The notes beneath the pieces were generated by a model. It was not told the origin of the DNA. It worked only from the letters and a program-made list of their open reading frames with translations, and searched no databases. Source: Clostridium sp. 1001271st1 H5 (GTDB taxonomy: Bacteria > Bacillota > Clostridia > Lachnospirales > Lachnospiraceae). From it: a DNA stretch of 64,000 bases. Shown here in pieces: positions 18,165 through 26,118 of the stretch; positions within the stretch are counted from its first letter, which is position 1, and every line of letters starts with the position of its first letter. The translations under genes were made by a program, and so were the position numbers. Location of the stretch: NCBI RefSeq assembly GCF_005845215.1, contig NZ_SPHO01000003.1:248001-312000 (forward strand), read 5' to 3'.

Positions 18165-18782
18165 TCAGATTTTGCGCATCAGGAACTGCAGGGTGTGGCA
18201 AGGGATTCCCATGCCCTTTTCCTGCATCTCTGTAAAGGCAGCCAGAATCCGGCCGATTTCCGCCTCGTCCGAGGGTATCAGATGATTGTCCAGGGTGATG
18301 GTCAGCACGGTCAGTACGATTTGGGCTGTTTCCTCCGGAAAGCTGCACTGGATGCTGCCCTCCCGTACGCCCTGCCGGATGATGTCTGCCAGTATGGGCT
18401 TCAGCTTGGTAATGATGATGCGGGAAAACTTCTGGTGTATGAAGGCGCTTTCTTGCTGCTCGTTAAAGGTGCGTATCTCCTCGCGGCGCCTTAATTCCAT
18501 AGAGGAATCCAGACAGGCGTGATATATGATTTCCAGTTTCTGGAAGGCATCCAGGCGGGAGGATGCAGCCAGCTCCCTGCCTTTGTCCAGGACGCGGGAG
18601 TAGTTCCTCTCAATCACTGCATCTATGATATCGTTCTTGGAAGAAAAATAGTAATAGATACTTCCTTTCCCGATACCGGCTTTTTGGGCAATATCACTGA
18701 CGGAAATGGCCTGGACATTGGAGGAACCCATAAGTTCCTGCATGGCATCCAGTATCATCTCCTTTTTATTATGGTTTTGCAT
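18165..18782 (-). CDS. TetR/AcrR family transcriptional regulator
   Basis: 205 residues. The N-terminal HTH reads ISVSDIAQKAGIGKGSIYYYFSSKNDII, a textbook TetR DNA-binding domain. The C-terminal ligand domain is not recognisable further. It is transcribed away from the PPTase-to-ligase operon, and the shared 208-bp gap contains two palindromic sites typical of TetR operators. It is therefore the likely repressor of that operon and of itself. GAGGA seven bases before the ATG supports the start. Confidence 0.92.
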   Translation of the reverse strand: MQNHNKKEMILDAMQELMGSSNVQAISVSDIAQKAGIGKGSIYYYFSSKNDIIDAVIERNYSRVLDKGRELAASSRLDAFQKLEIIYHACLDSSMELRRREEIRTFNEQQESAFIHQKFSRIIITKLKPILADIIRQGVREGSIQCSFPEETAQIVLTVLTITLDNHLIPSDEAEIGRILAAFTEMQEKGMGIPCHTLQFLMRKI

Positions 18783-18817
18783 AAAAAATCCTCGGTATTT
18801 TCTTTAGAATACATCCA

Positions 18818-18826
18818 AGTATAGCA
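18818..18826 (-). promoter_or_regulatory. Extended -10 promoter of the TetR gene
   Basis: TGCTATACT on the minus strand. The expected -35 region (about 18841-18846) directly abuts the upstream operator, so operator binding could shut off this promoter too. Confidence 0.5.
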
Positions 18827-18848
18827 GAATATAAATGAAAACGCTAGA

Positions 18849-18865
18849 CTTGACTGGCGGTCGAA
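18849..18865 (+). promoter_or_regulatory. TetR operator O1 (imperfect palindrome)
   Basis: CTTGACTGGCGGTCGAA shares the right half GGTCGAA and the GAC of the left half with O2. It covers the -35 box of the operon promoter. Confidence 0.65.
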
Positions 18866-18878
18866 AACATGTTATGTT
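18850..18878 (+). promoter_or_regulatory. Promoter of the PPTase/condensation operon
   Basis: TTGACT (18850-18855), exactly 17 bp, then TATGTT (18873-18878). It is embedded between and within the two operator palindromes. Confidence 0.7.
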
Positions 18879-18892
18879 TAATTTAATTCCGG

Positions 18893-18909
18893 TTCGACCA
18901 CTGGTCGAA
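18893..18909 (+). promoter_or_regulatory. TetR operator O2 (perfect palindrome)
   Basis: TTCGACC-ACT-GGTCGAA is a perfect 7-bp inverted repeat with a 3-bp centre. Its centre is 44 bp (about four helical turns) from that of O1. It lies just after the predicted transcription start. Confidence 0.75.
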
Positions 18910-18990
18910 ATATTGGAAAACAAGGAATTCAATGGCATGGGGCAGGACCCCGCCGGAAATGCGCTGAATGGAACCTCAGGAGGAAACCTC

Positions 18991-19542
18991 ATGATTTATC
19001 TGGCTTCATACGAGCCCGGCGGCACTCTTTATAACCGGGAGCGGGAACATTTACTGGGCAGGAGTCTGCTGAACTTCGGTCTTTTGAAGGAGTACGGACG
19101 GACCTGGGAGGTAATGGCCCAGGCAGGTACAAAGCCGTATCTTGAAGGGGCCGGGGGCGTGGAATTTAATATCAGCCATACAGAGGGGCTGGTAGTCTGT
19201 GCCATTGGGGACAGCGTGCTGGGCGTGGATACGGAACGGATTCGTCCGTTTAAAGGGAGTCTGATGCGGCGCATGTGTTCCGAAGCTGAGCGCAGCTTTG
19301 TAATGTCGGCAGCCTCTGAGACAGAGCGGCAGGAACGGTTCTTCCGCCTGTGGACGCTTAAGGAGAGCTTTGCCAAGGCCATTGGCCGGGGGCTGGCCTT
19401 CCCTCTGGGGGATATCACATTTTACCTGGAAAAGGGCGGCGTAAAAGGGAGTATTCCTGGCTGGAGGTTTTACCAGTCCAGGGTTTACCAGTCATATATC
19501 ATATCCGTCTGTGCGGCGGATGAAAAAGGAGAGGCAGTATGA
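18991..19542 (+). CDS. Sfp-type 4'-phosphopantetheinyl transferase
   Basis: 183 residues. The Mg2+/CoA-binding motif GVDTE (Asp80, Glu82) and the W121-T-L-K124-E125-SFAK128 motif define the Sfp family, which attaches phosphopantetheine from CoA to carrier proteins. The ATG at 18991 follows AGGAGG by eight bases. The open frame extends upstream, but those codons overlap the promoter and operator. It is the first gene of the operon. The carrier protein encoded at 22301 is its probable substrate. It overlaps the next gene by 4 bp. Confidence 0.93.
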   Translation: MIYLASYEPGGTLYNREREHLLGRSLLNFGLLKEYGRTWEVMAQAGTKPYLEGAGGVEFNISHTEGLVVCAIGDSVLGVDTERIRPFKGSLMRRMCSEAERSFVMSAASETERQERFFRLWTLKESFAKAIGRGLAFPLGDITFYLEKGGVKGSIPGWRFYQSRVYQSYIISVCAADEKGEAV

Positions 19543-19856
19543 GCTACGAAGAAGTATTTGTAAAGGTAAAGGAAATTTTCATGAAAGCGGATGTGAGCAG
19601 GGTGGAGGAGCATCTGGCGTTTCAGTTTAATATTACAGGCGAGGGCGCGGGCGCGTTTTATGCAGAGGTAAAGGACGGCAGTCTCAGTGTGGAGCCATAT
19701 GAGTATTACGACAGGGACGCAACGTTTATCTGTTCCGCAGATACACTTATCAGACTGGCATCGGGAAAGCTGGACCCGGTCTTTGCATTTACAACAGGAA
19801 AGCTGAAGGTTGAGGGAAGTCTGGAAAAGGCATTGATGTTACAGAAGTTTGTATAG
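19539..19856 (+). CDS. SCP2 sterol-carrier-like lipid-binding protein
   Basis: 105 residues, close to the size of a single SCP2 domain. The C-terminal part, LIRLASGKLDPVFAFTTGKL then KVEGSLEKA, is the conserved SCP2 pattern of a hydrophobic pocket for fatty acyl chains. Its ATG overlaps the PPTase stop (ATGA). In this context it may hold or present an acyl substrate or lipid product for the other operon enzymes. This is inference from neighbours. Confidence 0.88.
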   Translation: MSYEEVFVKVKEIFMKADVSRVEEHLAFQFNITGEGAGAFYAEVKDGSLSVEPYEYYDRDATFICSADTLIRLASGKLDPVFAFTTGKLKVEGSLEKALMLQKFV

Positions 19857-19881
19857 GCGGAAGCATTAAGGAGTGAAGCAT

Positions 19882-20841
19882 ATGGGAATCAAAGGATGGA
19901 TACTGGGACTGGCAACAGCAGGAGCGGCGGGGGAATACGGCATTGCCCGATATTTCTTCCATCGGACCGTGGTCCGGGGAAATGCAAAGCGCGACAGGAC
20001 CCGGAAAATGGCGGGTACGGACTGGGACGCCTATATACCGGGTATCCGCGCCAGCAGGGAATGGCTGGCAGGACAGCCTCAGGAAGAGGTGTACATAACA
20101 TCCGGGGACGGGCTCAGGCTCCATGGCACCTTTTTTGGCTGTGAAGGTTCCAGGAAGGCGGCGGTGTGTTTCCACGGCTATACCAGCGAAGGACTCAATG
20201 ACTACACGTCCATTGCAAGATTTTATCTGAATCACGGCTTTAATCTGCTGGTGGTGGATGAGCGGGCCCACGGCAAAAGCGAGGGCACCTATATTGGCTT
20301 TGGATGTCTGGACCGCCATGACGCCAGGCAATGGATGGAGTACGTGGTGGGGCGTTTGGGTGAGGACTGCGAGCTGATGCTGCACGGCATTTCCATGGGA
20401 GCAGCAACCGTGCTGATGTCCACGGGATTAAACCTTCCAAGGCAGGTCCGGGGGGCTGTGTCCGACTGCGCCTTCACATCTGCCTGGGAAGTGTTCAGCC
20501 ATGTGCTGAGGAGCATGTACCACATGCCGGCCTTTCCCGTGATGCAGATTGCGGACCGCATGGCCAGAAGCGAGGCAGGATACGGGCTGGATGAATGCAA
20601 TGCCAGGGAAGAGGTAAAGAAGGCGCACATTCCCATCCTGTTCATACACGGGGATGGGGACACCTTTGTGCCATGTTCCATGGTGTATGAGCTGTACGGG
20701 GCCTGCGGGTCGCCCAAGGAGCTGCTGGTTATACCGGGAGCCAGCCATGCAGAGGCTTACTATAAGGATAGGGACCGCTATGAAGCTGCAGTTGAGAAAC
20801 TGATTGCCCGTGCTTTTGGAAAAGAGGAGAACGAAGTATGA
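19882..20841 (+). CDS. Alpha/beta hydrolase with N-terminal membrane anchor
   Basis: 319 residues from the ATG at 19882, about 8 bases after AAGGAG. A GTG nine bases upstream overlaps that site and is less likely. A short hydrophobic N-terminus (about 5-26) is followed by an alpha/beta hydrolase fold with Ser171 in HGISMG, Asp260 in HGDGDTFVP and His289 in GASHAE. CFHGYTSEG forms the oxyanion region. It overlaps the condensation gene by 4 bp (ATGA). In this operon a thioesterase or product-releasing role at the membrane is plausible but unproven. Confidence 0.88.
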   Translation: MGIKGWILGLATAGAAGEYGIARYFFHRTVVRGNAKRDRTRKMAGTDWDAYIPGIRASREWLAGQPQEEVYITSGDGLRLHGTFFGCEGSRKAAVCFHGYTSEGLNDYTSIARFYLNHGFNLLVVDERAHGKSEGTYIGFGCLDRHDARQWMEYVVGRLGEDCELMLHGISMGAATVLMSTGLNLPRQVRGAVSDCAFTSAWEVFSHVLRSMYHMPAFPVMQIADRMARSEAGYGLDECNAREEVKKAHIPILFIHGDGDTFVPCSMVYELYGACGSPKELLVIPGASHAEAYYKDRDRYEAAVEKLIARAFGKEENEV

Positions 20842-22244
20842 AGACAAGGAAAGGCTACAAGGTATACCCGCTGACATCAGCGCAGAAGCTTCACTTTTAC
20901 TGCCTGAAATACTGTCCTAAAAAACAGGTGCTGAACATCGGGTCCAGCCTGACCATCCAGGTGGACCTGGACTGGGAGGTGCTTAAAAGCTGCATTAAAG
21001 AGGCCATTGCCCGCTGCGATACCATGCGTCTGCGCTTTACCCATGACAAGGAGGGTAATATCTACCAGTATGTGGTGAAGGAGGAGACAAAGGAAATCGA
21101 GCACTTTGACTTCACCGGCTGGAGGGAGGAGGACGCGGAGCAAAAGCTCAGGGAGTGGACTGAGATTCCCTTTGAGCGCTACGATTCCCCCATGCACCAC
21201 ATTGTGATGATTAAAATGCCGGATGGGTATCAGGGCTTATACATCTGCGTGGACCACATGACCATGGATGCCCAGTCCCTGATTCTGTTCTTCCGGGATG
21301 TGATTGAGCTGTATGCCAGCAGGTTCTATGAGGAAGTGGACCATCCAAAGGAGATGTCTTCCTATATCAGGCAGCTGGAAAAGGACCTGGCCTATGAGGC
21401 CGGAAGCAGGGCCAGCGAAAAGGACAGGGAGTTTTTCCAGGAGCTGATTGCTTCCTCCGAACCCATTTTCACGGATATATACGGTCCGGGGAAGCTGCTG
21501 GATGAGAGAAAGGCCGTCCGCAACCCCGGGCTGCGGGCAGCTACCAACACCTCGGATAATGTGGAGGCCAATATCACTAACTTCCACCTGGAAGGGGAAC
21601 CCTCCGGCCATCTGCTGGATTTCTGCGAGAAATACAGTATTTCCATGACCTGTCTTCTGCTAATGGGCCTTCGGACCTATCTCCAGAAGGAAAATGACCA
21701 GGATGATGTCTCCATCACAACCACCATTTCCAGACGGGCAACCCTGTCGGAGAAGCGCTGCGGCGGAAGCAGGATTCACTGTTTCCCCTTCAGGACCATT
21801 GTGCCCAGGGAGGACACCTTCATGGAGGGTCTGCTTAAGATAAGGGATGCCCAGAACCAGTACTTCCGCCATGCCAATTACAGTCCGTCGGAGTATTTCA
21901 ACTACAGGCATGATTATTATAACCTTAAGGACGGGCAGACCTATGAGCCGCTGAGCCTTACCTATCAGCCGCTGGCCATGAAGTACGACGGGCCCGGCCT
22001 GGACAAGCTGGGGGACATCAAGTACAAGACCGCCCGCTATTCCAACGGCGTGGCTGCCCACACCCTGTATCTTACGGTGAGCCACAGGGCGGAGGACAAC
22101 GGACTGGACTTTGGTTTTGAGTACCAGACCGGCGTGGTGACGCCGGAGAAGCTGGAGTACATCTATTACTACCTTTGCAGGATTATCTTCCGGGGCGTGG
22201 AAGACCCGGAGCGCACGGTGGGGGAAATCCTGGAGATGGTGTAA
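20838..22244 (+). CDS. Stand-alone condensation-domain protein (NRPS C-domain/acyltransferase superfamily)
   Basis: 468 residues, the size of one free condensation domain. The active-site motif reads VDH140MTMD144A, so the second His and the Asp of HHxxxDG are kept while the first His is Asp and the Gly is Ala. Later blocks (SITTTISRRA, FPFRTIVPRED and the C-terminal VSHRAEDNGLDFGFEYQTGVV) match the superfamily. Such enzymes join an acyl chain held on a carrier protein to an amine or alcohol. With the free ACP and ligase downstream, it probably makes an N- or O-acylated product. The acceptor is unknown. Confidence 0.85.
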   Translation: MKTRKGYKVYPLTSAQKLHFYCLKYCPKKQVLNIGSSLTIQVDLDWEVLKSCIKEAIARCDTMRLRFTHDKEGNIYQYVVKEETKEIEHFDFTGWREEDAEQKLREWTEIPFERYDSPMHHIVMIKMPDGYQGLYICVDHMTMDAQSLILFFRDVIELYASRFYEEVDHPKEMSSYIRQLEKDLAYEAGSRASEKDREFFQELIASSEPIFTDIYGPGKLLDERKAVRNPGLRAATNTSDNVEANITNFHLEGEPSGHLLDFCEKYSISMTCLLLMGLRTYLQKENDQDDVSITTTISRRATLSEKRCGGSRIHCFPFRTIVPREDTFMEGLLKIRDAQNQYFRHANYSPSEYFNYRHDYYNLKDGQTYEPLSLTYQPLAMKYDGPGLDKLGDIKYKTARYSNGVAAHTLYLTVSHRAEDNGLDFGFEYQTGVVTPEKLEYIYYYLCRIIFRGVEDPERTVGEILEMV

Positions 22245-22300
22245 GCCGGTATATATTTGGAACAGAAAACGGAAAATAACAATAAGGAGGATACAAGGAT

Positions 22301-22531
22301 ATGTTTGAAGAATTAAAGGAAATCATCTGTGAATATGTGGATGTGGCGCCGGAGACCATTGGGGAGGACTCCAGGTTCATCGAGGACCTGGGTTTCAACT
22401 CCTATGATTTCATGAGCATGGTGGGAGAGATTGAGGAGAAATTCGACGTGGAAGTAGAGGAACGGGAAGTGGTCAACGTAAAGACCGTAAAGGATGCAGC
22501 GGATTATATCCAGTCCCTGCAGGCAGAGTAG
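22301..22531 (+). CDS. Acyl carrier protein
   Basis: 76 residues, acidic, with DLGFNSYDFMSMV around Ser34, the phosphopantetheine attachment site (usual LGxDS, here LGFNS). AAGGAGG precedes the ATG by about nine bases. It is clearly a dedicated carrier rather than housekeeping AcpP, because it is embedded between the condensation protein and the ligase and no fab genes are nearby. It should be activated by the PPTase and loaded by the ligase. Confidence 0.93.
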   Translation: MFEELKEIICEYVDVAPETIGEDSRFIEDLGFNSYDFMSMVGEIEEKFDVEVEEREVVNVKTVKDAADYIQSLQAE

Positions 22532-22553
22532 GCCGTAAGGGCAGGAGGAAGAT

Positions 22554-24062
22554 ATGGCAGCAGAGACATTAAGGGATGTAATCCGGCACGGCGCAGAGGC
22601 TTATGGAGAGCAGACAGCATTCCGGTACAAGGTAAAGAAGGAAATCATTGATAAGTCATACAATGAGGTGAACCTGGATTCCATGGCCGTAAGCCGCGCT
22701 CTGGAAGCCCTTGGAATGAAGGGCAGGCACGTTGCCGTCATAGGCGCAACCACCTACCAGTGGATTGTCACCTATTTTGGAATCGTGAACAGCGGCAGCG
22801 TGGCAGTGCCAATCGACTCCCAGCTTCCGGCGGAAGCCATTTATGAGCTCTTAAACAGGGCGGATGTGGAAATGCTGGTGTACGATGAACTGCGGGCCGA
22901 CGTGGCAGAGGCTGTTCAGGAAAAATGCCCGGGTATCAGGCATGTGGTTTCCATGCAGGCCTGTGAGCAGACGGGAGATGTGCTGTCGCTGTCCTGCCTC
23001 ATAGCGGAAAATGCCGGTGCATACGAGACAGAGCCTGTCCCGGACCAGCTCTGCACCATACTCTTTACCTCAGGCACCACCGGGAAGAGCAAGGGAGTCA
23101 TGCTGAGCCACAGGAATCTGACTGACAATGCGGTCTGCCTGGACATGAAGATACCTGCAGGTACCGTGTCCATGACCCTGCTGCCTATCAACCATGTGTA
23201 CTGCCTGACCATGGACATCATAAAGGGACTTTACATAGGAATGATTATCTGCATCAATGATTCCATCATGCATGTACAGCGCAACATGAAACTGTTTAAG
23301 CCGGAAATTGTGCTGCTGGTCCCCCTTGTCATTGAGTCCATTTACGGTAAGCTTAAGGATGCCGGAAACCTGATACCCAAAAAGATGGTGGCAAAGGCTG
23401 CCTTTGGAGGCAATCTGAGAATCATTTGCAGCGGCGGGGCCTATCTGGACCCGGACTATATAGACCGTTTTAAGGAATACGGCATTACCATCCTTCAGGG
23501 CTACGGAATGACTGAGTGTTCTCCTGTCATCAGCACCAACCTGGAATGGGAGAATAAAACGGGCTCAGTGGGAAAACTTCTTCCCAACTGCCAGGCCAGG
23601 GTTGTGGACGAGGAAATCTGGGTAAGGGGCTCCAGCGTCATGCAGGGCTATTACAAGATGCCTGAACAGACAGCCGAGACATTGGAGGACGGATGGCTTA
23701 AGACAGGGGACTTAGGGTATGTGGACGAGGATAATTTTGTCTATATCACAGGCCGCCGCAAAAACCTGATTATCCTGGCCAACGGTGAGAATGTGTCTCC
23801 GGAGGAGCTGGAAAATGAGCTGAGCCGTTCGGAACTGGTGAAGGAAATTCTGGTACGGGAAAAGGATAAGATAATCGAGGCGGAGATATTCCCGGATTAC
23901 GAGTATGCGAAGAAAAAGCATATTAAGGATATACGGGGAAAGCTTCAGGAATTGATTGACGGGTTTAATAAGGATATGCCGGTTTATAAGAGAATCTACA
24001 GCCTGATTGTCAGGGAAACGGAGTTTGAGAAGACGCCGTCTAAGAAAATTAAGAGATTTTAG
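22554..24062 (+). CDS. AMP-dependent acyl ligase (fatty acyl-CoA/ACP synthetase family)
   Basis: 502 residues. The adenylate-forming motifs are complete: LFTSGTTGKSKGVM (about 170-183), GYGMTECSP, TGDLGY, then GRRKNLIILANGENVSPEE, and a C-terminal catalytic lysine in TPSKKIKRF. It resembles FadD-like ligases more than NRPS amino-acid adenylation domains. It would activate a carboxylic acid, probably fatty, and pass it to the ACP at 22301, which lies 22 bp upstream. It is the last gene of the operon and is followed by a strong terminator. Confidence 0.92.
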   Translation: MAAETLRDVIRHGAEAYGEQTAFRYKVKKEIIDKSYNEVNLDSMAVSRALEALGMKGRHVAVIGATTYQWIVTYFGIVNSGSVAVPIDSQLPAEAIYELLNRADVEMLVYDELRADVAEAVQEKCPGIRHVVSMQACEQTGDVLSLSCLIAENAGAYETEPVPDQLCTILFTSGTTGKSKGVMLSHRNLTDNAVCLDMKIPAGTVSMTLLPINHVYCLTMDIIKGLYIGMIICINDSIMHVQRNMKLFKPEIVLLVPLVIESIYGKLKDAGNLIPKKMVAKAAFGGNLRIICSGGAYLDPDYIDRFKEYGITILQGYGMTECSPVISTNLEWENKTGSVGKLLPNCQARVVDEEIWVRGSSVMQGYYKMPEQTAETLEDGWLKTGDLGYVDEDNFVYITGRRKNLIILANGENVSPEELENELSRSELVKEILVREKDKIIEAEIFPDYEYAKKKHIKDIRGKLQELIDGFNKDMPVYKRIYSLIVRETEFEKTPSKKIKRF

Positions 24063-24070
24063 AAAGAGAG

Positions 24071-24120
24071 CTGACTCCTGGCGGGAAATAATGGGTTTTC
24101 CGGCCGGGAGGCAGTTTTTT
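24071..24120 (+). terminator. Terminator of the condensation/ACP operon
   Basis: CTGACTCCTGGC and GGAAA pair with TTTTCC, GGCC and GGGAGGCAG, followed by TTTTTT. Confidence 0.88.
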
Positions 24121-24158
24121 GATTCATTGTCTGGAAACGGATGCGGGAGGAATTTTTG

Positions 24159-24187
24159 TTGTAAATCATCTTCAGAACGGCTATAAT
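24159..24187 (+). promoter_or_regulatory. Promoter of the AAA/PD-(D/E)XK gene
   Basis: TTGTAA (24159-24164), 17 bp, TATAAT (24182-24187): near-consensus sigma-70 spacing, ending about 35 bp before the start codon. Confidence 0.75.
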
Positions 24188-24222
24188 TTTATATAAGAAA
24201 GCAGGAAAGGCTGGAAGTCATA

Positions 24223-25857
24223 ATGAAAAAACTGCCTATTGGAAATGATGAATTCAGGGAATTGCGTGAGAACGGCTATTATTATGTGGATAAGACCATG
24301 ATAATTAAGGATTTTCTTGACAGCGGTGATAAAGTTACATTAATTGCAAGGCCGCGCAGATTTGGCAAAACATTGAATATGACAATGATGCGGGAATTTT
24401 TTGATGTAAACGCAGACAGCAGGGCTATTTTTCAGGGACTTGATATCATGGATACCGATTATGCGTCAAAGCTTAACAGCTGTCCGGTCATTTTTTTATC
24501 GCTCAGAAATTGCAAGGGAAAGAACATGGATTTCCTGACCTATCAGATTCGCGCGGAATTGGCCCGTGAATTTAACCGTTTTGCAGAGCTGTTTGATTTG
24601 GATGATACAGCGCAGAAAAAGCCCTATTCGGTCCGCCAGTTTGAGCAGATGTTAGGAATGCTGGAGAACCGTGATTTGTCAGCCATGTACATGACAACTG
24701 CGCTTGCGGATTTAACCCGGATGATTCATGAATTTTATGGAATTCCACCATTATTGATTATCGACGAGTACGACCAGCCAATAATCAGCAGCTATGAACA
24801 TGGATATCATGATGATATGGGGGACTTTTTCTCTGCATTTTATGGGGCAGGATTAAAAGGCAACCCTGATTTGGGGCAGGCTATTTTGACGGGCATACAA
24901 AGAGTTGCCAAAGAAAGTATATTTTCGCAGCTGAATAATCCTAAAATATATACAGTTATGAATGGACGGTATTCAAGATATTTTGGGCTTACCAGCAGGG
25001 AGGCAGACACACTTTTAAGGTATTATGGCAGAAGTCTGGATGACGGTGTGAAACGGATGTATGATGGATACCGGTTTGGAGAGGATGAGATATATAATCC
25101 ATGGTCCATACTTAATTATGCGGACAGTGGATTTTTAGACCACTATTGGGTCAATACACCCTCTAATTATCTTGTACGGCAGGCACTTGAAAAAGCCAGC
25201 AGAAGCTTTTGGGAGGATTTTGATGTATTGGCTGCAGGAGGTTCTTCGTCTGTTTGGCTCAATCTGGATACTTCGTATACGGAACGTGAGAGTAATTATA
25301 GTTTGTGGGGACTTCTTGTCAATGCCGGGTATGTGACAGTGGAGAAGCGCATCGACGCAAATTCAGCAGTTATCCGTATTCCCAATGAAGAGGTGATGTC
25401 GGAATTTTTGGTATTGGTAACGGAAATCGCAGGTATCGAAGGCCAGGGATTGCAGGAAATGTTTCAGGCACTGACACATAAAGACATAAATCGTTTTTTG
25501 GATATATACAGGAACCTGGTTATTACCTGTACGAGCTTTATGGATGCCAGAGAGAATGCGTATCATATGCTTTTCCTGGGAATGTGCATGACGCTAAGGG
25601 GGGTGTATCAGGTCAGCAGTAATCTGGAATCCGGAACAGGAAGAAGCGATATCATTTTAAAATCATTGAAAGTATCTCTGCCCCATGTGATTATTGAGTT
25701 TAAACAAGGAAATAATATTGAAAAGCTGCAGAATGAAGCTCTGAAGCAGATAGAAGACCAGAAATATTTTGCCGGGTTGTCCGGTGAGGTGGTGTGCATT
25801 GGAATTGCCCATGACGGAAAGCGGTGTACTGCAGCATATAAAATCCTGACACAATGA
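24223..25857 (+). CDS. AAA-ATPase-like protein with C-terminal PD-(D/E)XK nuclease domain
   Basis: 544 residues. It opens with PIGNDEFRELRENGYYYVDKT, then a modified Walker A IARPRRFGKT (41-50) and a Walker B LLIIDEYDQPI. The C-terminus has GRSDIILKS and IIEFKQG, matching the D and ExK of the nuclease fold. This two-domain family is common, often in many copies, in gut Firmicutes and Bacteroidetes, and its function is not established. Base composition is visibly richer in A+T and more TTA/ATA-using than its neighbours, and the gene sits alone between its own promoter and terminator, which suggests horizontal acquisition. Confidence 0.88.
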   Translation: MKKLPIGNDEFRELRENGYYYVDKTMIIKDFLDSGDKVTLIARPRRFGKTLNMTMMREFFDVNADSRAIFQGLDIMDTDYASKLNSCPVIFLSLRNCKGKNMDFLTYQIRAELAREFNRFAELFDLDDTAQKKPYSVRQFEQMLGMLENRDLSAMYMTTALADLTRMIHEFYGIPPLLIIDEYDQPIISSYEHGYHDDMGDFFSAFYGAGLKGNPDLGQAILTGIQRVAKESIFSQLNNPKIYTVMNGRYSRYFGLTSREADTLLRYYGRSLDDGVKRMYDGYRFGEDEIYNPWSILNYADSGFLDHYWVNTPSNYLVRQALEKASRSFWEDFDVLAAGGSSSVWLNLDTSYTERESNYSLWGLLVNAGYVTVEKRIDANSAVIRIPNEEVMSEFLVLVTEIAGIEGQGLQEMFQALTHKDINRFLDIYRNLVITCTSFMDARENAYHMLFLGMCMTLRGVYQVSSNLESGTGRSDIILKSLKVSLPHVIIEFKQGNNIEKLQNEALKQIEDQKYFAGLSGEVVCIGIAHDGKRCTAAYKILTQ

Positions 25858-25885
25858 AGAAACGGCTGGACAGTGTGTTATGAGG

Positions 25886-25934
25886 GGGTTAGCGGAATTC
25901 AGAAGAAGATTCTGATTTCCGCTAACCCTTTTTT
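25886..25934 (+). terminator. Terminator of the AAA/nuclease gene
   Basis: GGGTTAGCGGAA pairs with TTTCCGCTAACCC, followed by TTTTTT. The rest of the gap to 26152 holds only an A+T-rich stretch and a -10 box. Confidence 0.9.
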
Positions 25935-26118
25935 GATGATTAAAGGCGGCCTAAAACATACAGTGGTAAAAAGATTACTATAAAAAGTCAAAGATATCCA
26001 TTCTAAAAACCATTTCTACCCTATCTCCGACATCCGGAACAAAAATCCGGGTGTAATTCAGTCAAAATCATACAGTTTTCCATCAATTTATTTTATTCAT
26101 CCGCGACCTGAAAAAAGA

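Follow-up and report, generated by a model that had tools for sequence, protein, structure and literature searches.

Fatty acid amides (FAAs) of gut Clostridia act on human G protein-coupled receptors (PMC13142362). The condensation (C) enzyme OaaC forms such amides in vitro by coupling an acyl chain on an acyl carrier protein (ACP) with a free small amine, and the product of the Oaa system is oleoyl aminovaleric acid (PMC13142362). OaaC is described as a homodimer that is opened by holo-ACP. The nearest relatives of FAA C domains are the starter condensation domains of lipopeptide nonribosomal peptide synthetases (NRPSs), and the motif given for FAA enzymes is (D/H)HxxxD, the next residue being S in 42%, A in 36%, or G in 17% (PMC13142362). 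A three-gene CTA operon of gut Clostridia is credited to Chang et al. 2021, and 70% identity to a C protein of that study has been used as the criterion for an FAA C protein (PMC13060934). Products reported from these bacteria include lauroyl tryptamine from gut Clostridia, among them Eubacterium rectale (PMC11561910), and oleoyl, palmitoyl, and linoleoyl ethanolamine and oleoyl dopamine from Blautia (PMC13060934). Here we describe a related locus in a 64,000-nucleotide stretch of the genome of Clostridium sp. 1001271st1 H5 (Lachnospiraceae; contig NZ_SPHO01000003.1, positions 248,001 to 312,000), hereafter referred to as the window. It comprises a divergent TetR-family repressor gene and six genes for a phosphopantetheinyl transferase (PPTase), an SCP2-family protein, an alpha/beta hydrolase, a free-standing C protein, an ACP, and an acyl ligase. 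We interpret it as a TetR-repressed FAA cassette, a reading to which we assign a probability of about 0.78.

The C protein (20838..22244, forward strand) is of the FAA type. Its best match in PDB was OaaC (12KH) of Coprococcus eutactus, with an E value of 2.5e-106, 359 bits, and 39% identity; the next-best chain, a canonical NRPS domain, reached 2.4e-07, and no chain other than OaaC scored above 33 bits. The protein has 468 residues, PF00668 (1.2e-38) spans residues 8–464 with no second Pfam family, and the sequence VDHMTMDA fits the published FAA motif. A discrete ACP (22301..22531, forward strand; PF00550, serine in DLGFNS), whose nearest PDB matches were type II fatty acid synthase ACPs, and an AMP-forming acyl ligase (the A protein; 22554..24062, forward strand; PF00501, 1.1e-66) adjoin the C protein, as an FAA (CTA/Oaa) synthase requires. 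The top NCBIfam match of the ligase was a long-chain-fatty-acid ligase subfamily, with a score under the cut-off. Judged by homology, the C-ACP-ligase core is the published CTA/Oaa system, and the assignment of this part of the cassette to a known kind is firm. Since the C, ACP, and ligase genes form the published CTA operon, the cassette most likely encodes a fatty-acid-to-amide synthase. An earlier first-pass annotation of this DNA had suggested an acylated small molecule as the product, which agrees with the FAA kinship of the core, but its view that the pathway matched no described one was overturned by the match to OaaC. The DHxxxD motif that it had read in the C protein is present. A fragment of a canonical NRPS was rejected by the single-domain architecture and the PDB ranking of the C protein. 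The 10 proteins examined in the vicinity of the locus included no NRPS module, as had been noted, nor an acceptor carrier module, the genome not having been searched with NRPS families. The single match to the C protein in its own genome was the C protein itself.

An open reading frame (ORF) listing and a Pfam scan of the window located all seven genes of the previously named families, and their order agrees with the proposed compact line for activation, loading, and condensation beside a TetR gene. Upstream of the core, on the forward strand, lie the genes for an Sfp-type 4'-phosphopantetheinyl transferase (18991..19542; PF01648, 7.3e-16), the SCP2 lipid-binding-family protein (19539..19856; PF02036, 4.5e-15), and the alpha/beta hydrolase with an N-terminal helix (19873..20841; PF12146). 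Spacing is tight, but the overlaps described between several genes were confined to two junctions of 4 bases each (PPTase/SCP2 and hydrolase/C), the remaining gaps in the operon being 16, 56, and 22 bases. The longest PPTase ORF begins at 18835, ahead of the promoter predicted for the operon; the start at 18991 is most likely correct because the predicted promoter and operators occupy 18849–18909, three close relatives (L031, L032, and L056) have the 183-residue form, and AGGAGG is located just 5' of the ATG at 18991. A terminator-like hairpin 3' of the ligase gene (24095..24112, forward strand) is a consensus match only, such sites in the region numbering 8 against 6.0 expected by chance. The search for the gene order in relatives, proposed with the annotation, showed that it recurs across Lachnospiraceae and is, on this comparison, beyond chance.

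For a phylogeny, C proteins were gathered from whole genomes and from named genome contigs. Of the 581 places confirmed in the named-contig scan, the best 80 were used, each with an identity of at least 58%, so that the window's side is heavily sampled. After removal of 17 duplicates and of L055, L056, and L057, whose length was unsuitable, the 143 loci and the window gave 124 rows, which were placed together with OaaC in a tree built by a quick method with SH-aLRT support only and midpoint rooting. The tree included no canonical C domains, the separation from which rests on the PDB comparison. Two groups were recovered, one of 17 rows around OaaC (support 99) and one of 107 that includes the window protein (support 88, or 98 for the 106 rows without L047); the latter is termed clade I below. 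The C protein thus belongs to a clade beside that of OaaC. L053 formed a very long branch outside both groups; this very divergent variant (L053:7757-11717) has the order C-ligase-ACP-PPTase. Among the matches listed, the nearest named relatives were [Clostridium] clostridioforme AGR2157 (C protein 95% identical) and [Clostridium] citroniae WAL-17108 (88%), two species now classed in Enterocloster, Lachnospiraceae; their C proteins matched those of genomes of the same genus as the host exactly across the 300 C-terminal residues compared, and the host is therefore most likely an Enterocloster.

Neighboring genes were called within 5.5 kb at an E value of 1e-4 with profiles built from clade-I-rich hits, by which distant homologues near the OaaC group could be missed. 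At least 2.5 kb of upstream sequence was available for 95 clade-I loci; the hydrolase gene was found in all 95, SCP2 in 82, a divergent TetR gene in 74, and PPTase in 9, and among the 90 with at least 2.5 kb downstream the ligase was present in 90 and the ACP in 89. Where both flanks were sufficient (82 loci), the order TetR<>SCP2-hydrolase-C-ACP-ligase occurred in 51, the window order with PPTase in 4 more, and TetR alone was missing in 12. The non-redundant set (85% identity) held 69 loci, of which 62 had sufficient upstream sequence, with hydrolase in 62, SCP2 in 53, TetR in 46, and PPTase in 7. In the OaaC group, SCP2 and the cassette-type TetR were found in none of the 14 loci with sufficient upstream sequence, and a related hydrolase, on either strand, in 5; ACP and ligase accompanied 11 of 15. 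Another TetR-like gene, weakly matched (22–28 bits), lay near 6 of 16 OaaC-group loci, so this group may have its own regulator. Solitary C genes of the OaaC group with the His and Asp retained were also observed (L051:7441-8829, L054:7812-9200, L180:6072-7475, and L182), with no ACP or ligase match within 5.5 kb. In L026, L027, L028, and L057, which come from genomes of another family of the order, a C-domain-like region (23–26% identical) lies within an open frame of approximately 1330–1420 residues. An extra conserved neighbor, such as an amine-making enzyme, was rejected: among ORFs of at least 110 residues within 8 kb of the 69 non-redundant clade-I loci no additional partner stood out, the commonest extra family, an ABC ATPase, occurring in 13 (about 7 kb upstream in one example) and the next in 6.

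The first residue of the clade-I motif is D in 83 rows, N in 15, H in 8, and S in 1, followed by HxxxDA in all 107. The aspartate in place of the first histidine could point to a non-catalytic C protein or a decayed locus; this is very improbable, for the catalytic His and Asp are invariant in 107 of 107 clade-I rows and OaaC with DHxxxD is active (PMC13142362). The residue after the catalytic Asp is Ala throughout clade I and Ser in 16 of 17 OaaC-group rows, and that after the catalytic His is Arg in 16 of 17 OaaC-group rows versus 7 of 107 in clade I (Met in 69, Leu in 24). As OaaC uses aminovaleric acid, the OaaC-group Arg might, as a guess, hold its carboxylate. These differences could also mean that the clade-I enzyme transfers the acyl chain to an alcohol or a lipid headgroup, yielding an ester or another acylated lipid in place of an amide of a free amine, and the SCP2 protein and lipase-like hydrolase would suit such lipid chemistry. 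Ala, however, already accounts for 36% of the published FAA set at that site (PMC13142362), and we consider an ester or lipid product unlikely.

The repressor gene (18165..18782, reverse strand; PF00440/PF21303) is divergent from the cassette and is its predicted regulator. The gap between them contains operator 1 (CTTGACTGGCGGTCGAA; 18849..18865), which overlaps the -35 box, and operator 2 (TTCGACCACTGGTCGAA; 18893..18909), whose half-sites are perfectly inverted. A forward promoter, TTGACT-17-TATGTT with TG before the -10 box (18850..18878), was also predicted. The operators were missed by a search of the gaps for even-length palindromes; the odd-length 17-bp model was written after reading the gap sequences, and a 17-bp site was called if it scored at least 11 of 14 against TTCGACCNNNGGTCGAA, with 20 single-base shuffles per region as the control. 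TetR-cassette gaps were long enough in 74 of 77 clade-I loci, and 73 of these 74 contained at least one operator and 59 contained two, while shuffles expect 0.55 regions. The start-to-start spacing of paired operators was 42–45 bp, being 44 bp in 41 of 59 pairs. With the threshold lowered to 9, a pair was found in 65 of 77 gaps. The upstream copy reads TTGAC in 65/65 of these pairs and the downstream copy mostly TCGAC (C at that position in 57/65), as if the -35 box constrained the upstream copy. TA...T occurs 16–18 nt after TTGAC in 65/65 pairs, with a preceding T in 51 and G in 48, these columns having been chosen after seeing the sequences. The strict -10 score, reached by 35 of 65 pairs versus 35% in shuffles, is weak by itself and less clear than these columns, and a generic promoter scan performed at chance level (7 found, 6.3 expected).

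The presence of the operators follows that of the repressor. When at least 2.5 kb of upstream sequence was available, an operator was present in 73 of 74 clade-I loci that have TetR and absent from 17 of 21 that lack it; none of the 15 OaaC-group loci had one. In the non-redundant set the corresponding frequencies of operators were 45/46 with TetR versus 3/16 without it (Fisher p=9e-10, which beyond the 85% filter ignores kinship). The four operator-bearing loci without TetR (L073, L124, L126, and L136) had no TetR match in the stretch examined. In the host's 6.5-Mb genome, TTGACYNNYGGTCGAA with at most one mismatch matched just the two cassette sites, compared with 18 matches for the backward control pattern. 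Because the operators track TetR and the genome-wide pattern is limited to these two sites, the repressor is predicted to serve the cassette, perhaps the cassette alone, and the comparative case for a dedicated switch is strong. The sole TetR locus without an operator match, L042 (G092), carries two shifted versions of the site that end in GGTCAGA and perhaps co-evolved with its repressor. A TetR-less cassette (L084:3-4604) is preceded by three ORFs, two with response-regulator-like starts, from families found in 4–5 of 69 non-redundant loci; they perhaps provide different control.

The best NCBIfam match of the repressor was FadR, a regulator of fatty acid metabolism (NF053878), at 44.8 bits. 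This match is in line with a role of the cassette mainly in fatty acid detoxification or salvage, in which fatty acids would relieve repression, amide formation would neutralize them, and the hydrolase would recycle amides or strip acyl groups. Growth of Blautia wexlerae is inhibited by long-chain fatty acids and rescued by some amines, with the formation of acyl amines (PMC13060934). On the other hand, the FadR match does not reach its cut-off of 200 bits, a fatty acid is only a candidate ligand, and the Blautia wexlerae operon may come from the other clade. We regard such a protective role as possible, though not as the favored explanation.

The distribution of PPTases, typed by our own rule that at least 60 residues before the domain denote the Sfp type, depends on whether the cassette carries one. 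The host genome encodes two, the cassette Sfp-type enzyme and one AcpS. Of 10 genomes with a cassette PPTase, 8 had only AcpS-type enzymes besides it (G002, G011, and G013 by frame length only); the exceptions were G005, with an extra Sfp-type enzyme, and G492, in which no other PPTase was found. When the cassette lacked PPTase (26 genomes), an Sfp-type enzyme was encoded elsewhere in 24, while only AcpS was found in G110 and G010 (77% complete). An Sfp-type enzyme elsewhere thus occurs in 1/10 versus 24/26 genomes (p=5e-6, ignoring kinship). Cassette-less Enterocloster had AcpS only in 8 of 9 genomes (G009 by frame length), and an Sfp-size frame was present in 10 of 13 other cassette-less Lachnospiraceae; the 24/26 alone therefore means little, and it is the contrast with PPTase-bearing cassettes that counts. 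We infer that an Sfp-type PPTase is required for the cassette ACP and that lineages lacking one carry the gene in the operon. In two Clostridium loci (L100 and L121), the PPTase gene is located between those of the ACP and the ligase, not at the operon head, which suggests a separate recruitment.

The extension of the core by the hydrolase and SCP2 genes is well supported by the genome comparison as an anatomical unit with predicted roles. The SCP2 protein is the sole match to its family in the host genome, and a profile search related it to sterol carrier protein 2, with a weak match (E=0.0017) to a fatty-acid-binding protein as well. The hydrolase residues Ser174 (in GISMG), Asp263, and His292 are invariant across 19 aligned members, and its structure was predicted with a pLDDT of 87. 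Both by sequence profile and by fold, its best match was the esterase Pf2001 of Pyrococcus furiosus, followed in the fold ranking by a peptidase (tricorn factor F1), the thioesterase DcsB at rank 14, and, from rank 18 on, monoglyceride lipases. The hydrolase gene has the same strand as the cassette in 95/95 clade-I loci and, taking the longest frames, overlaps the C gene or stops at most 50 bases from it in 95/106. This close association with the C gene would suit a proofreading thioesterase that clears misloaded ACP, as opposed to a supplier of fatty acids; type II thioesterases share the hydrolase fold, and DcsB ranks before the first monoglyceride lipase. The leading match by profile and fold is nevertheless an esterase, and an N-terminal helix is atypical of editing thioesterases, so that we regard a proofreading function as possible but less likely than not. 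The alignment and the model place a basic stretch after this helix; by the positive-inside rule, the enzyme would then face the cytoplasm.

We infer the following scheme for the FAA cassette, including its product, the acceptor amine, the repressor ligand, and the roles of the SCP2 protein and the hydrolase. By homology to Oaa/CTA, the ligase would adenylate a fatty acid and load it onto holo-ACP, and the free C protein would transfer the acyl group from the ACP to a small amine that diffuses freely, releasing an N-acyl amide. Holo-ACP would be made by the cassette PPTase, the only other PPTase of the genome being AcpS-type. More weakly, SCP2 may transport the fatty acid or the product, both hydrophobic; the hydrolase may release fatty acids from a lipid ester, or edit or unload acyl groups, and is perhaps tethered to the cytoplasmic face of the membrane. 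The repressor would block the promoter by occupying both operators and probably senses a fatty acid, an acyl-ACP or acyl-CoA, the amine, or the amide. A more specific proposal makes the SCP2-hydrolase type a separate functional branch of gut FAA synthesis that is self-contained: a lipase would release acyl chains from lipids of the diet, the host, or the cell itself, SCP2 would pass them to the ligase and ACP, the twin-operator TetR would open the line when lipid is abundant, and the acceptor would differ from the omega-amino acid of OaaC. The difference in acceptor is suggested by the large loss of the Arg beside the catalytic His in clade I; the proposal as a whole is speculative and, in our estimate, rather improbable.

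Several observations weigh against the interpretation as an FAA cassette with a lipid-handling extension. The window C protein, at its modest identity to OaaC, belongs to the neighboring clade, and no clade-I member could be tied to a measured product in this analysis. An attempt to assign the Blautia products to clade I failed: the genus to which Blautia sp. An249 belongs, represented by 64 genomes, included, by identity, 13 clade-I-like (55–61%) and 12 clade-II-like (36–38%) C proteins, and since the genus holds both kinds, its products are not transferable to the window clade. SCP2 is absent from 13 of 95 clade-I loci and is therefore not always needed. The hydrolase belongs to a broad superfamily, and its fold does not settle its job because the folds listed after Pf2001 include peptidases, thioesterases, and lipases. 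Its anchoring in the membrane, proposed in the first-pass annotation, is possible but unsure, since the N-terminal helix is mildly hydrophobic: the best N-terminal 19-mer of the window protein has a mean hydropathy of 0.84, and values of at least 1.6 occur in 25 of 104 members.

Directly after the cassette, at 24223-25857, the window encodes an AAA-ATPase-like/PD-(D/E)XK_9 protein (PF09820, PF08011), and the block 24001-26000 has the lowest GC content of the window (41.8%). A homologue was present in just 2 of the 27 relatives' stretches (right after the ligase in L055 and 3.8 kb further on in L047), so the gene may be a later insertion. A defense system was rejected, as no PADLOC model matched the C protein or the downstream ATPase. 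A mobile or phage-borne locus was also rejected: the search for near-identical DNA gave no plasmid match and the protein search no phage match.

Compared with the described systems, the window resembles the OaaA/OaaACP/OaaC set of Coprococcus eutactus, the producer of oleoyl aminovaleric acid, in having a discrete ligase, a discrete ACP, and a free C protein with DHxxxD. Unlike the window type, the OaaC-clade loci, which did not include the C. eutactus locus itself, lacked SCP2 (0/14), the cassette-type TetR (0/14), and its operators (0/15), and their motif is DHRxxDS versus DHxxxDA in the window clade. Starter C domains share the acyl donor with the window C protein, but their acceptor is held on a downstream carrier protein within the module, and none was found among the window neighbors scanned. 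The esterase Pf2001, best match of the hydrolase by profile and fold, is only 20–24% identical to it. The CTA operon of Blautia wexlerae and Coprococcus catus has C, T, and A genes together in Lachnospiraceae, as in the window; it is described as a three-gene operon (PMC13060934), to which the window adds the hydrolase, SCP2, TetR, and PPTase. The three-gene core is thus already tied to products, which removes the novelty that the first-pass annotation had proposed for this part of the set, while for the SCP2-hydrolase-TetR extension no such tie appeared in PMC13142362 or PMC13060934. The main texts of these two reports make no mention of the hydrolase, SCP2/sterol carrier, or TetR, nor does that of PMC13060934 mention a PPTase; the novelty of the extension is bounded by these main texts, without Chang et al. 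2021. The window thus represents a common FAA branch in which a lipid carrier and a hydrolase are added and a dedicated repressor is paired with a clear predicted operator; this combination provides a DNA signature for the branch and makes the source of the fatty acid and the timing of gene expression testable.

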